From Ignavibacteria bacterium (GTDB taxonomy: Bacteria; Bacteroidota; Ignavibacteria; Kapaibacteriales; Kapaibacteriaceae): a DNA stretch of 59,857 bases. Below the pieces are notes generated by a model. It saw only the letters and a list, made by a program, of their open reading frames with translations, was not told the origin of the DNA and searched no databases. A program made the position numbers and the translations under genes. The stretch covers positions 1 to 59,857 of the forward strand of contig CANMBE010000015.1 of assembly GCA_947495975.1 (NCBI GenBank), read 5' to 3'. Numbering within the stretch: the first letter of the stretch is position 1; each line of letters starts with the position of its first letter. Positions 18,791 to 22,800 of the stretch are shown in pieces.

Positions 18791-18813
18791 AAAAAAAAAC
18801 TCACGAAATCGTG
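18791..18813 (-). terminator. Weak hairpin with T9 run between DksA-like gene and lspA
   Basis: On the minus strand a short stem (CACG, loop ATTT, CGTG) is followed by AG and nine T's. It lies in the gap after the DksA-like stop (18,850) and before the lspA ATG (18,771). The stem is only 4-5 bp, so it may be a weak terminator or attenuator that lowers lspA expression, or simply a T run. Confidence 0.35.
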
Positions 18814-18849: not shown

Positions 18850-19416
18850 TTATTTAAGCGATGCAGTATTCTTTGCCACGATACGATCAATACCGTCATC
18901 TGGACAGCGCTGATGTATCTTATACGAAGCGGAGAGCGTTGTGATCGGCACCGCGAGCAAACGTTCTTTGGAGATAAGAATGCCACACATACGGCAAATG
19001 CCATATGACTTGTCTCCGATGCGGTAGAGCGCTTCCTCTAGCTTACGAAGGTAGTCCTGAATGCGCTGAATCTGAGCGTAGGTCTTCTCTTTTTCAATTG
19101 CCTCAGAGCCTTGCTCTGCCATATGCATTGAGTAGATAGCACTGTCTTCATTGTTTTCGCTGTTGGTGAGATCTTCTAGACGCTCACGAAGCATGCGAAG
19201 TTCTTCGATGGCTTCTTCTTTTGAGTGTTCAATATTGGCGCGGAAGAATGCGAGGTCTTTTTCCGGGTATCTCAAACCCTTTTTGGGCTGAACTGGGAGC
19301 ATCTGTTTATTACTACGTGGTGTGGTTGCTGGAACAAAAACTGCACCGGCGGTCTTAACGACCGCCGATGCAGATGCGACTGTCCCTGCTGACTTCACAG
19401 ACTTCGAATTCGTCAC
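18850..19416 (-). CDS. DksA/TraR-type zinc-finger protein (probably C-terminal part of a frameshifted fusion)
   Basis: The domain is DksA-like. A long helical/coiled-coil region (FFRANIEHSKEEAIEELRML onward) is followed by a TraR/DksA zinc-finger region with CRMCG and HQRC, where the third ligand is probably His instead of Cys. DksA proteins bind the RNA polymerase secondary channel and tune initiation with ppGpp. The assigned GTG start (19,416) is poor. The same frame stays open upstream to 19,596 and encodes a Lys/Ala/Ser/Thr-rich stretch that continues the composition of the H1-like ORF ending at 19,566. A -1 shift at the A10 run at 19,575-19,584 would join both into one protein of about 324 residues. 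Either this is programmed slippage or a one-base indel. Confidence 0.8.
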   Translation of the reverse strand: MTNSKSVKSAGTVASASAVVKTAGAVFVPATTPRSNKQMLPVQPKKGLRYPEKDLAFFRANIEHSKEEAIEELRMLRERLEDLTNSENNEDSAIYSMHMAEQGSEAIEKEKTYAQIQRIQDYLRKLEEALYRIGDKSYGICRMCGILISKERLLAVPITTLSASYKIHQRCPDDGIDRIVAKNTASLK

Positions 19417-19565
19417 GTTCCTACTTGCTGCTGGCTTTGATCGTGCGTTCTTGGCGTCTGCCGAACTGTTTTTCGACGTAGTGGCTTTGGCCGGGGCCTT
19501 GGCCGCTGTCGAAGTCTTGTTTTTTGAAGTCGTTACGGGGCTCTTAGCCTTGTTTGGGCGTACCC

Positions 19566-19823
19566 TTACTTGGCTTTTTTTTTTGCTACGGCCTTCTTAG
19601 CAGGCTTTGCAGCCTTCTTAGCTGGCTTTGCGGCCTTCTTGACTGCCTTCTTGACTGCCTTCTTGGCTGTCTTTTTGGCTGCCTTCTTAGCTGGCTTCTT
19701 AGCTACAGCCTTTTTGGCTGGCTTCGTAGCCTTCTTCGTTGCCTTCTTAACAGCCTTCTTGGCTGCCTTCTTGGCTGGCTTCTTAGCCGCAGGCTTCTTG
19801 GCTGCCTTTTTTGCTGCTGCCAT
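19566..19823 (-). CDS. Lysine/alanine-rich histone H1-like ORF
   Basis: This 85-residue ORF is made almost wholly of AKK, PAKK and AVKK repeats, like bacterial H1-like proteins (Hc1, AlgP, BpH1 types) that bind DNA non-specifically. I start it at ATG 19,823 (MAAAKKAAKKPAAKK); the frame is open further upstream but that part is not of the same composition and covers the ileS 3' end. It ends in AVAKKKAK at a TAA just past a run of ten A's. The DksA-like ORF follows in the -1 frame with a similar K/A-rich lead-in, so this is probably the N-terminal part of a DksA fusion protein. On its own it would be a free H1-like protein. Confidence 0.7.
   Translation of the reverse strand: MAAAKKAAKKPAAKKPAKKAAKKAVKKATKKATKPAKKAVAKKPAKKAAKKTAKKAVKKAVKKAAKPAKKAAKPAKKAVAKKKAK
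19575..19584 (-). promoter_or_regulatory. A10 slippage site between H1-like and DksA-like frames
   Basis: The coding (minus) strand reads GCA AAA AAA AAA GCC AAG TAA. The ten consecutive A's are a classic site for RNA polymerase or ribosomal slippage. Insertion of one A in the mRNA, or a -1 ribosomal slip, moves translation from the H1-like frame into the frame that continues without a stop to the DksA zinc finger. A homopolymer sequencing error would give the same picture. Confidence 0.55.
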
Positions 19824-19854: not shown

Positions 19855-19878
19855 AACGCGCACGCCAGTTTGGCGTGC
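19855..19878 (-). terminator. Rho-independent terminator after ileS
   Basis: On the minus strand, just after the ileS stop, a 7-bp perfect stem (GCACGCC / GGCGTGC) with loop AAACT is followed by GCGTTTTCA. The T run is short. It would end ileS transcription before the H1-like/DksA genes, though read-through is plausible. Confidence 0.55.
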
Positions 19879-19884
19879 ATTTTG

Positions 19885-22800
19885 TCAGACGCGCATAATG
19901 CGCACGTTGACTTGGCGCCCGTTGATCTCGAGATCAACTCCTTCGGGTTGTTCCCCCCGCTCGAGCGTTTCGGTCAGCGTTTCCAGCACAATGTATGTTC
20001 GCATGGTTTCCAGAGCCGAAGCGGTGTCATCATCTGACACGAACCGTATGCTGATGCGGTCTGTCACTTCAAATCCGGAATCCTTACGAAACTTTTGAAC
20101 TTTACTCACAAACTCACGCGCTAAACCTTCCCGTAGAAGCGTTTCATCGAGTTCCGTATCGAGTGCCACGGTGAGTCCGCCGTCGGAGGCCACCAACCAA
20201 CCCTCAATATCTTCACTTACGATTTCAACATCCTCAAAATCAATCTGTAACGTTTGCTCTCCTATTGAGAGTGCAAATACAGATGACTGTTCAAGTTTTC
20301 GCACCTGATCATGAGTCAGCGACTTGATCGCCTGCGCTACCACCTGAGTTGCATCCCCATACTTCCTACCAATAATCTTGAAGTTTGGCTTTGCACTGCG
20401 CCGGACAATGTTTGTGTCGTCCGAAACGTATTCAATCTCTTTCACGTTGATCTCCTCTTTGATGATGTCTTCAACTGATTGTAGTTGTCGACGCATCGCC
20501 GGGCTATCCACGGGAAGTAAGATCCTACGCAGTGGTTGTCGCGTTTTGATCTTCGCTTTTTCTCTCAAAGAACGGGCAAGAGAAACAATATGTTGCGCTT
20601 GCCACATGCGACGTTCGAGATCAACGTTGATCAATCCCTCATCACACGATTGCAATATAATACAATGAACCGTGAAATGTTCTTTGTTAGAATTCAATCG
20701 AAGAAAAATTGATTCAGAAAGAAATGGCGCCACGGGGGCAATCAATTCCGCCACGCGAATCAGAACGGTATGAAGAGTCTGATAGGCAGCACGTTTGTCC
20801 TCGTCATATTCACCCTTCCAGAAGCGTCTTCTGTTGCGACGCACGTACCAATTTGATACGTCTTCAACAACAAACTCCTGCACAAGTCTACATGCCTTCG
20901 TTATATCAAAGTCGTCCATCGCAGTTATATGATCACGTATTACGGTGTTGAGCCGGGAGATAATCCAGAGATCAATCTCGGCGCGTTTTTCCACAGGAAC
21001 AATCGGATCTGATGCAGAATAGCCATCGAGATTTGCATACATCGCAAAGAACTCATAGGTGTTGGTGAATGACCTGAAAAGGTCTGCCAGCACTGTTTTG
21101 GCGATATCTTCTTCGTTCCACAACTTTGGTTTATGCACAGGCGAAGACGCCATCAAGAACCACCGAACGGCGTCGCTGCCAAACTTGTCCATCACCTCAA
21201 ACGGTTCTACGGTGTTACCCTTAGACTTGGACATCTTTTGACCCTTCTTATCAAGAAGCAGGTCATTCACAACAACACTTTTGTATGCCGGCTGGTCAAA
21301 AAGTGCGGTGCTGATATTGTGCATGGTATAGAACCATCCGCGCGTTTGATCGATTCCTTCGGCGATAAAATCCGCAGGAAATGCCTTCTCAAAAAGTTCC
21401 ACGTTTTCGAACGGATAGTGGAACTGCGCAAAGGGCATACTCCCAGAATCGAACCAAACATCTACTACTTCTTTTGTGCGTCGGAAGGTCTTTCCATCGC
21501 GCACAAACACAACTTTGTCTACAAAGGGGCGGTGCAGGTCGATTTCAATTCCTGATTCTTCAACGGGAACAAGCGTACCATCTTCTCTTTCGTAGAGTCC
21601 TTTTTTCAGTTCAGCAATAGATCCGATTGCGAACATTTCCTTGGATTCTTCGTGCACCCACAATGGAAGCGGCGAACCCCAGTAACGGTCGCGAGAGATG
21701 GACCATTCCTTTACGTCTTCAAGCCAATTCCCAAATCTTCCTTCGCCAATCTCTGGTGGATGCCACTTAATAGTTTTGTTTAACTCAACGAGTCTATCTC
21801 GGTATGAAGGCGAGGTGATAAACCATGAGTCGCGTGCGTAATAGATGACTGGGTTGTCCGTTCGCCAGCAGTGTGGATAACTATGCACGTAGTCGAACGC
21901 TGCCCGGTAGACTTTGTCCTGAATTTTCAGCGACTTTACAATGTCTCGGTCAGCCCCCTCTTCAACATGATCTGCATATGTAAATGTCTTCACTGCTCTT
22001 CCGGCAAATGCGGCAATCTCGTCCGTAAAGTGCCCATTAGGCGTCACTGGTTGCGGAACCGGCAGGCGGAACGTCTTTGACATCTCAAAGTCGTCCTGGC
22101 CAAAGGCAGGCGCCAGGTGAACCACGCCCGATCCGTCACTGGTGGTTACAAAAGCGCCCGGCAGCACGTGCAGCACATCGGGGAATGTAGCCGAATCGAG
22201 ATCCACGTCTGGGAAGACCTGTTCGTACGTAGACCCCACGAGATCTGCACCCTTGCAATGCCCGATGATTTCAATCTCGCCGTCAAGAATCTCCAAGCGA
22301 GATTCTGCCAGCACCAAGATTTCATCAAAAGAGCGCTCGCCAACAACCCGCGTATTTCGAACCACTACATAGTTGATTGCTGCACCAACGGCAAGTGCGA
22401 CGTTCGCAAAAAGCGTCCACGGAGTTGTTGTCCAAACAAGGATGAACGCACCCTTGGCAGCAGCAAAGGGAGACGTGGTGAGCTTTAACTTGAGATAAAC
22501 GTTGGCATCTTTTACTTCTTTATAATTCAGCGATAACTCATGTGAGGAAAGGGGCGTACCAAGTGTTGGCGATTGAGGTACAACCTTATACCCGCGATAG
22601 ATGAGCCCCTTATCAAAAAACTTCTGCAGAGCCCACCAAACGGATTCTACATAGTCATTGGTGCAGGTGATGTAGGCCGAGTCGAGGTCCAGCCAATGCC
22701 CCATCCTACGAGAGAGTGTGCGCCATCCATTGTCCTGGCCAATGTTGCGATAGACGATCTCTCTGCAGGCTGCATTAAACGTATCTACGCCAAGCACTTC

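Follow-up and report, generated by a model that had tools for sequence, protein, structure and literature searches.

A single gene lying between ileS and lspA on the minus strand of the DNA analysed here (a stretch of 59,857 nucleotides, referred to as the window) probably gives rise to at least two proteins by means of a programmed -1 frame transition, a reading that includes conserved RNA helices and an attenuator-like hairpin (HP2) within the coding sequence. From comparison of the sequences, the frame transition itself is very probably programmed, selection having maintained the -1 relation at a conserved slippery run with RNA helices around it. Reading without a shift would stop within a few codons of a run of ten A residues and release a free H1-like nucleoid protein; shifted reading would cross a linker rich in K, S, T and A, enter a DksA-like domain of the RNA-polymerase-binding type and so produce a fusion. 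The shift may be brought about by polymerase slippage at the A10 run, by ribosomal -1 frameshifting on A_AAA_AAA aided by a second hairpin (HP1), or by both. In addition, a conserved GTG may start DksA alone, and HP2 with its U-rich tail would serve as an intrinsic attenuator.

The genome holding the locus is 2.18 Mb in size and the window corresponds to its contig C15. We take the window to belong to a member of the Kapabacteria, as most of its close relatives among named records bear titles of Candidatus Kapaibacterium, Ignavibacteria or Bacteroidetes MAGs and a few bear others. The gene order on the minus strand is ileS (ending at 19885), the H1-like ORF, the DksA-like ORF, an lspA-like gene and an rluD-like gene, the names ileS, lspA and rluD being our own reading of the translations. 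The features of the locus, in the direction of reading, are the following.

19859..19879 (-): terminator-like hairpin in the gap between ileS and the H1-like ORF, found by the terminator scan
19566..19823 (-): H1-like K/A-rich ORF of 85 aa with an ATG start and the stop TAA at 19568-19566; putative unshifted product
18850..19596 (-): -1 frame ORF, open for 248 codons, comprising the spacer and the DksA-like domain to its stop
19575..19584 (-): A10 candidate slip site, where the H1 frame reads GCA AAA AAA AAA GCC
19546..19575 (-): HP1, predicted 30-nt interrupted hairpin beginning at the last A of the run, with the H1 stop codon inside
19511..19517 (-): 5' arm of P2, a long-range helix predicted from covariation in the family alignment
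19414..19416 (-): conserved internal GTG, a possible start of DksA alone, from codon conservation
19399..19405 (-): 3' arm of P2, just downstream of the GTG
19341..19373 (-): HP2, predicted hairpin of 14 bp resembling a terminator or attenuator, located within the reading frame of DksA
19331..19340 (-): U-rich stretch following HP2, with 7 T among 10 nt
18850..19251 (-): DksA/TraR/YteA-like domain with a zinc-finger-like end (PF01258, TIGR02890 and TIGR02420 matches)
18791..18813 (-): hairpin of 4 bp judged by eye and then T9, where the unit may have its 3' end; the stem is too short for the terminator scan and is absent from its list

The H1-like ORF begins at an ATG with AGGGG 8 nt upstream in the window; GGAGGT or GAGGT takes this place in other loci of the family, and in the family loci inspected GGAGGT or a similar motif lies about 6-8 nt away. 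The ORF ends in V-A-K-K-K-A-K-stop. That the A10 run is followed by a -1 frame open from 19596 into the DksA-like domain had been noted in the original prediction from the sequence of this one locus, and this was confirmed here, an A run followed by an open -1 frame recurring in 23 of 23 genomes of the family. The predicted fusion of about 324 residues also agrees with a hand count of 324 aa, made up of H1 residues 1-83 and 241 residues of the shifted frame.

For the 85-aa protein, no domain or family match was obtained at E 0.1 with Pfam- and NCBIfam-type models, and the label H1-like rests only on its K/A/P-repeat composition. Searching the genome with the H1-like repeat pattern returned three matches, all within this ORF, and no second such gene. 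The DksA part scored 27 bits against PF01258, above the cut-off of 24.9. It lay under the cut-off for TIGR02890 (69.1 bits), for the NCBIfam DksA equivalog TIGR02420 (43.9 against 115.5 bits) and for NF033459 (45.9 against 105 bits). Its domain resembles that of the DksA/TraR/YteA proteins, from which the present protein differs in its long H1-like/K-rich N-terminal part and in having three Cys rather than four. Four zinc-binding Cys are expected in a DksA/TraR zinc finger; three were counted in the alignment of the window protein and, by eye, in its relatives. In the window the shortfall sits at 18853-19000 (-).

Conservation of the arrangement was assessed in a sample of the window's family comprising 23 genomes of seven genera, all of which possess the DksA gene. 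An A run at constant phase is present in every one of these, being A10 in 22 and A11 in one (homopolymer lengths as given in public assemblies), and a zero-frame stop lies no more than 10 nt from the run in all 23. At 22 of the 23 loci a K/A-rich ORF lies in the frame from which a -1 shift is required; at L014 the contig begins 18 nt before the run, so the H1 frame is not visible there. Complete H1-like ORFs with an ATG were identified at 19 loci, incomplete ones being explained at L007 and L014 by contig edges and at L023 by Ns within the ORF. At L002 (G004:C49) the H1 ORF is broken by a frame change upstream of the run, which is either a mis-assembly at the repeat or real.

The spacer between the run and the GTG varies from 129 to 162 nt and takes eight different lengths (43-54 codons), and the offset from H1 to DksA is -1 in all 22 loci where it is visible. 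Across all 23 spacers there is no stop in the -1 frame, with between one and six stops in each of the other two frames. As a single shuffled spacer would be open with a chance of 0.04-0.39, no one genome proves that the spacer is held open, but the agreement of many genomes does. Codon usage was also examined. In the rest of the H1 ORFs (22 loci) Lys is encoded 574 times by AAG and 72 times by AAA, so that AAA-AAA-AAA at the slip site goes against the codon preference; L007 is the sole locus of the family that prefers AAA. In each of 12 pairs, which overlap, the spacer had fewer synonymous differences than the domain (e.g., 0.18 vs 0.83), and this low synonymous change points to constraint on the nucleic acid. 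Spacer differences at codon positions 1, 2 and 3 numbered 22, 17 and 33 over five separate pairs, a weak third-position excess (chi-square about 5.6, p about 0.06, summed by hand).

Runs of at least nine A or T are rare, with ten matches, corresponding to seven separate runs, on both strands of the 2.18-Mb genome. These seven runs were all covered by a check for split genes using open frames of at least 80 aa, and apart from the A10 none was seen to divide a gene between successive long frames. Two of the seven, namely the A10 and the T9 after DksA, belong to this gene and are no more than 800 nt apart.

The DksA-like domain was found in 112 of 123 genomes of the order, and the arrangement could be classified in 86 of the 89 domain-bearing genomes from outside the family. 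The other three are G025, which is a fragment, and G032 (L028/L064) and G046 (L025/L055), which were seen as in-frame in a separate scan. The -1 arrangement was found again in two further lineages, f7 (L149 and L151, two of nine loci, with A10) and f9 (L168, L170 and L172, three of twelve loci, with A9). Scanning the other 81 loci of the order revealed no shifted K/A-rich ORF; these have DksA either alone or preceded by a longer in-frame N-terminal part that is K-rich to varying degree. For labelling of the domain tree, in-frame and short forms were told apart by a 200-aa length rule, with L182 and L196 (labelled short), and also L024 and L213, being cut by contig edges. On this tree, a quick one, the shifted label needs three changes and the well supported branches force at least three, which may represent three gains or a combination of gains and losses. 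The joining of two parts of one gene by a -1 transition, as originally proposed, is thus supported in seven genera and two further lineages. Two comparisons suggested at that time, a search of homologs for in-frame fusions and for a conserved A run of changing length, gave the following results: K-rich in-frame fusions occur in relatives, and the run is A10 or A11 in the family and A9-A10 in f7 and f9.

Both f7 and f9 have A_AAA_AAG as their zero-frame heptamer, and a stop codon follows it directly in four of the five loci (CAG in L149). All three f9 loci have a hairpin that ends 1 nt 5' of the A9 run, with 8 bp in two of them and one A-A mismatch in L168, and the upstream fold is better than that of shuffled sequences (p 0.013, 0.000 and 0.040). 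Folds upstream of the run in the window's family gave p 0.07-0.85 in 22 loci, none reaching 0.05. A small hairpin 3' of the run, starting about 4-5 nt after the heptamer, is also present in three of three f9 loci and is no better than shuffles (p 0.12-0.27). Folding revealed no flush 3' hairpin like HP1 in either f7 or f9. A hairpin just 5' of the run promotes polymerase slippage in an IS630 element of Roseiflexus, according to the accessible part of PMC5009743, and by analogy the f9 hairpin has the geometry of stem-loop-promoted polymerase slippage; such a 5' stem-loop is a feature of some slippage genes only. It may be that f7, f9 and the window's family arrive at the same outcome by different means.

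The original prediction missed the folded segment between the run and the domain, which comprises HP1, P2, HP2 and the conserved internal GTG/ATG. HP1 was predicted by folding in 20 of the 23 family loci, with a short form in L012 and no hairpin at that place in L014 and L016. At p <= 0.05 its fold surpasses that of shuffled sequences in only 14 of 23 loci; neither of the two 38-nt windows that follow does so in any of the 23, nor does the upstream segment in any of 22. The helix of HP1 is interrupted (4-3-4) and begins 0-1 nt after the run and 2-3 nt after the first heptamer. Covariation was evident, with 85% of cells paired and five of 11 pairs changed on both sides, in an alignment of 16 equal-length rows that flatters HP1 by leaving out L012, L014, L015, L016, L018, L019 and L020, where its length or place differs. 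HP1 does not stand out against windows lying further along the same gene, as these are dominated by HP2.

The P2 helix pairs 19517-19511 with 19405-19399 and encloses the GTG; 91.9% of its cells are paired and three of seven pairs have changed on both sides. HP2 has 13-17 bp in all 23 family loci, with folding energies of -22.7 to -33.9 kcal/mol, and both sides have changed in 11 of the 15 pairs of its consensus. Taken jointly, P2 and HP2 are paired in 93% of cells, and 14 of their 22 pairs have changed on both sides, a level reached by none of 500 shuffles, and versions slid out of register pair in at most 50%. Among 13 terminator-like sites in 7.5 kb (7.6 expected in shuffles) HP2 has the most pairs. 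Its sequence has the make-up of an intrinsic terminator, a stable GC-rich hairpin and then a U-rich tract, from which termination is predicted; across the family the tail has 3-7 T in 10 and is U-rich rather than a pure U run. Bases GGGACAG before HP2 can pair with CUGUUUC of the tail in many members, lengthening the hairpin (19388-19331 (-)). We also noted CGTC (19478-19475) and GACG (19414-19411 (-)) as a candidate helix hiding the GTG, with 62 nt from CGTC to GTG in most of the 23 loci; judged by eye its columns hardly vary, and this helix is unproven.

The RNA model R2, covering the GTG-HP2 region, matched the locus at E <= 2.5e-16 in all 23 family genomes, every one a training row, and the model R1 did so at E <= 0.03 in all 23, with 16 being training rows. 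Among the matches listed, no comparable second copy of these structures was found in the 123 genomes. Three extra R2 matches were examined, two of them being terminator-like sites and one lying in a K/A/E-rich coding region, and the next-best R2 match (G004, E 5e-7) looks like a terminator close to where another ORF ends. The one extra R1 match examined (L231, f4) is terminator-like and lies between two genes on the opposite strand. Rfam returned four sub-threshold matches with E up to 5, none of them relevant. Outside the family, no uninterrupted 13-pair helix of the HP2 type was seen among the best hairpins in the 330 nt before the domain at 86 loci, where the strongest hairpin (-23.1 kcal/mol) is interrupted.

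The codon at 19416 is GTG in 18 family loci, ATG in four and GCG in one (L005). GTG accounts for 64 of 260 valine codons elsewhere in the DksA frame. The changes at this codon amount to only two independent events, one ATG clade and one GCG genome, and the flanking bases are conserved too. An AGGA lies only 2-3 nt before the GTG, which by the usual Shine-Dalgarno rule is too close. The codon pattern gives moderate support to a start codon at 19416, and DksA alone may be a third product made from the conserved GTG/ATG. The GTG had been described as poor in the original prediction; this holds for the Shine-Dalgarno spacing only and is at odds with the conservation of the codon. Similarly, the proposal that the likely product is one protein stands as far as the fusion is concerned and is too simple in that DksA may also be made by itself.

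With a start codon possible at this position, the locus could be read as two ordinary neighbouring cistrons, translation of the H1-like protein beginning at its ATG and that of DksA at the 19416 GTG, in which case there would be no fusion and the A10 run and HP1 would be incidental or used otherwise. The GTG or ATG found in 22 of 23 loci, the purine-rich AGGAA-like stretch nearby in most of them and the occurrence in several relatives of DksA without a K-rich part are all in keeping with this. It is nonetheless improbable given that in all 23 genomes the -1 frame has no stop over the 43-54 codons before the GTG, with length changes that keep the frame, that relatives carry in-frame fusions, that the same -1 join recurs at A9-A10 in two other lineages and that the Shine-Dalgarno spacing of the GTG is poor. 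That the split stems from decay of the gene or from a MAG artefact, as a frameshift error or a pseudogene, is hardly credible. Metagenome assemblies can err at homopolymers and L002 does have a broken H1 ORF, but the arrangement is seen in 23 of 23 genomes of seven genera and in two further lineages, 20 of the 23 are separately titled records from various projects, and the RNA helices covary and the domain is strongly conserved. Sequencing error or decay is considered ruled out by the conservation in all 23 genomes and in the two other lineages.

Two alternatives concern the RNA. HP1 together with the T10 of the opposite strand might be an intrinsic terminator for an antisense RNA, with the A run conserved for that purpose. 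A hairpin flush with T10 does have terminator geometry, and the R1 match in f4 is terminator-like and read on the other strand. We nevertheless regard this as very unlikely: HP1 is interrupted where HP2 is near-perfect, it is absent from the terminator scan list, f7 and f9 retain the -1 run without a flush 3' hairpin, and the open -1 frame and the constant phase are left unexplained. Alternatively, the segment from HP1 to HP2 could be mainly a regulatory RNA, such as a small RNA derived from a 3' UTR or a protein-binding attenuator, that is readable in the -1 frame by chance. The covariation of P2 and HP2, the low synonymous change and the terminator-like nature of HP2 agree with such a role; the open frame and the net length changes that keep the coding phase make it unlikely that this is the main role of the segment. 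Regulatory-RNA and coding roles are compatible, and this reading is a rival only to coding as the main role.

Returning to the programmed -1 transition, its mechanism may be polymerase slippage, ribosomal shifting or both. The original prediction that slippage would supply both a free H1-like peptide and the fusion is supported with regard to the two products; as to how they are made, a ribosomal -1 shift fits as well. The locus has a run of about nine or more A/T within coding sequence at conserved phase, as in slippage genes, and it also has a heptamer of the form X_XXY_YYZ in the zero frame, A_AAA_AAA in the family and A_AAA_AAG in f7 and f9. Polymerase slippage is favoured by the length of the run, 9-11 where seven would be enough for a ribosome, by the recurrence of the run in f7 and f9, where no flush 3' hairpin accompanies it, and by the 5' hairpin in f9. 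Ribosomal shifting is favoured by the heptamers A_AAA_AAA and A_AAA_AAG together with the 3' hairpin HP1, which speaks for the ribosome since a 3' hairpin would not yet exist with the polymerase on the run. Stimulators of -1 frameshifting generally begin 5-8 nt after the heptamer, as stated in the accessible portion of PMC4066793, and HP1, abutting the run, has a spacing shorter than this. By eye, an SD-like AAGG, an optional element of ribosomal -1 frameshifting, precedes the run in the alignment of part of the family only.

The position of HP2 suggests how the frame choice might be coupled to transcription. A ribosome halting after the run would leave nearly 200 nt of RNA free, HP2 would form, the RNA would end and only the H1-like protein would be made. 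Ribosomes in the -1 frame or starting from the GTG would melt P2 and HP2 and allow a long RNA. This coupling of translation and termination through HP2 is our own hypothesis. More specifically, and tentatively, the gene may be a slip-gated attenuator in which the shift at A10, in the transcript or by the first ribosome, decides whether a ribosome trails the RNA polymerase and prevents termination at HP2. If this were true, each RNA would be either short, encoding the histone-like protein only, or long, encoding the histone-DksA fusion, and one homopolymer would set a chromatin protein against a regulator of RNA polymerase. Since RNA polymerase is the target of DksA-like factors, it might be that the gene senses the behaviour of the polymerase and regulates itself.

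The word DksA occurs neither in the accessible text of a survey that covered frame transitions across 1106 prokaryotic genomes (PMC3711429) nor in the examined part of a large review (PMC5009743). A literature search on DksA with slippage, frameshifting, H1-like parts or Kapabacteria, covering few subscription papers, returned no title or opening of an abstract describing this arrangement. It is not common for a non-mobile bacterial gene to carry a conserved programmed frame transition; dnaX, copA, mxiE and spa13 are examples in the accessible parts of the literature. The arrangement described here joins a nucleoid-type protein to an RNA-polymerase-binding domain.

A close parallel is dnaX, which likewise yields a short and a long product from one gene by a shift. 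As given in the portion of PMC1088944 that was available, this occurs by polymerase slippage at an A9 run in Thermus thermophilus and by ribosomal frameshifting in Escherichia coli, that is, one outcome reached by different mechanisms in two species. The shift yields the short product in dnaX, whereas here it is required for the long fusion; the two also differ as to gene, embedded P2/HP2 structure and terminator-like hairpin. In this respect mxiE and spa13 of Shigella are similar to the present gene, their longer product needing slippage (PMC1088944, PMC5009743), and slippage in spa13 also affects expression of the next gene (PMC5009743); these are other genes with another run context, and the accessible passages mention no embedded terminator-like hairpin. 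The copA gene of E. coli is a chromosomal gene whose N-terminal part is freed as a small protein by the choice of frame, as predicted for the present one, but in copA the shift makes the small protein and here it would make the fusion (PMC5009743, in part). The transposase genes of Roseiflexus IS630 and of IS1447 have a hairpin directly 5' of the slippery run, as in f9, according to the available parts of PMC5009743 and PMC6211511; they belong to mobile elements, and the hairpin in the window's family lies 3' of the run. Beside these systems, the present gene occurs in three branches of one order with differing flanking hairpins (flush 3', 5' and none evident), one of the branches having a conserved terminator-like hairpin within the coding sequence. 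It offers a natural comparison for the origin of slippage signals and a case in which the choice of frame could decide the length of the transcript.
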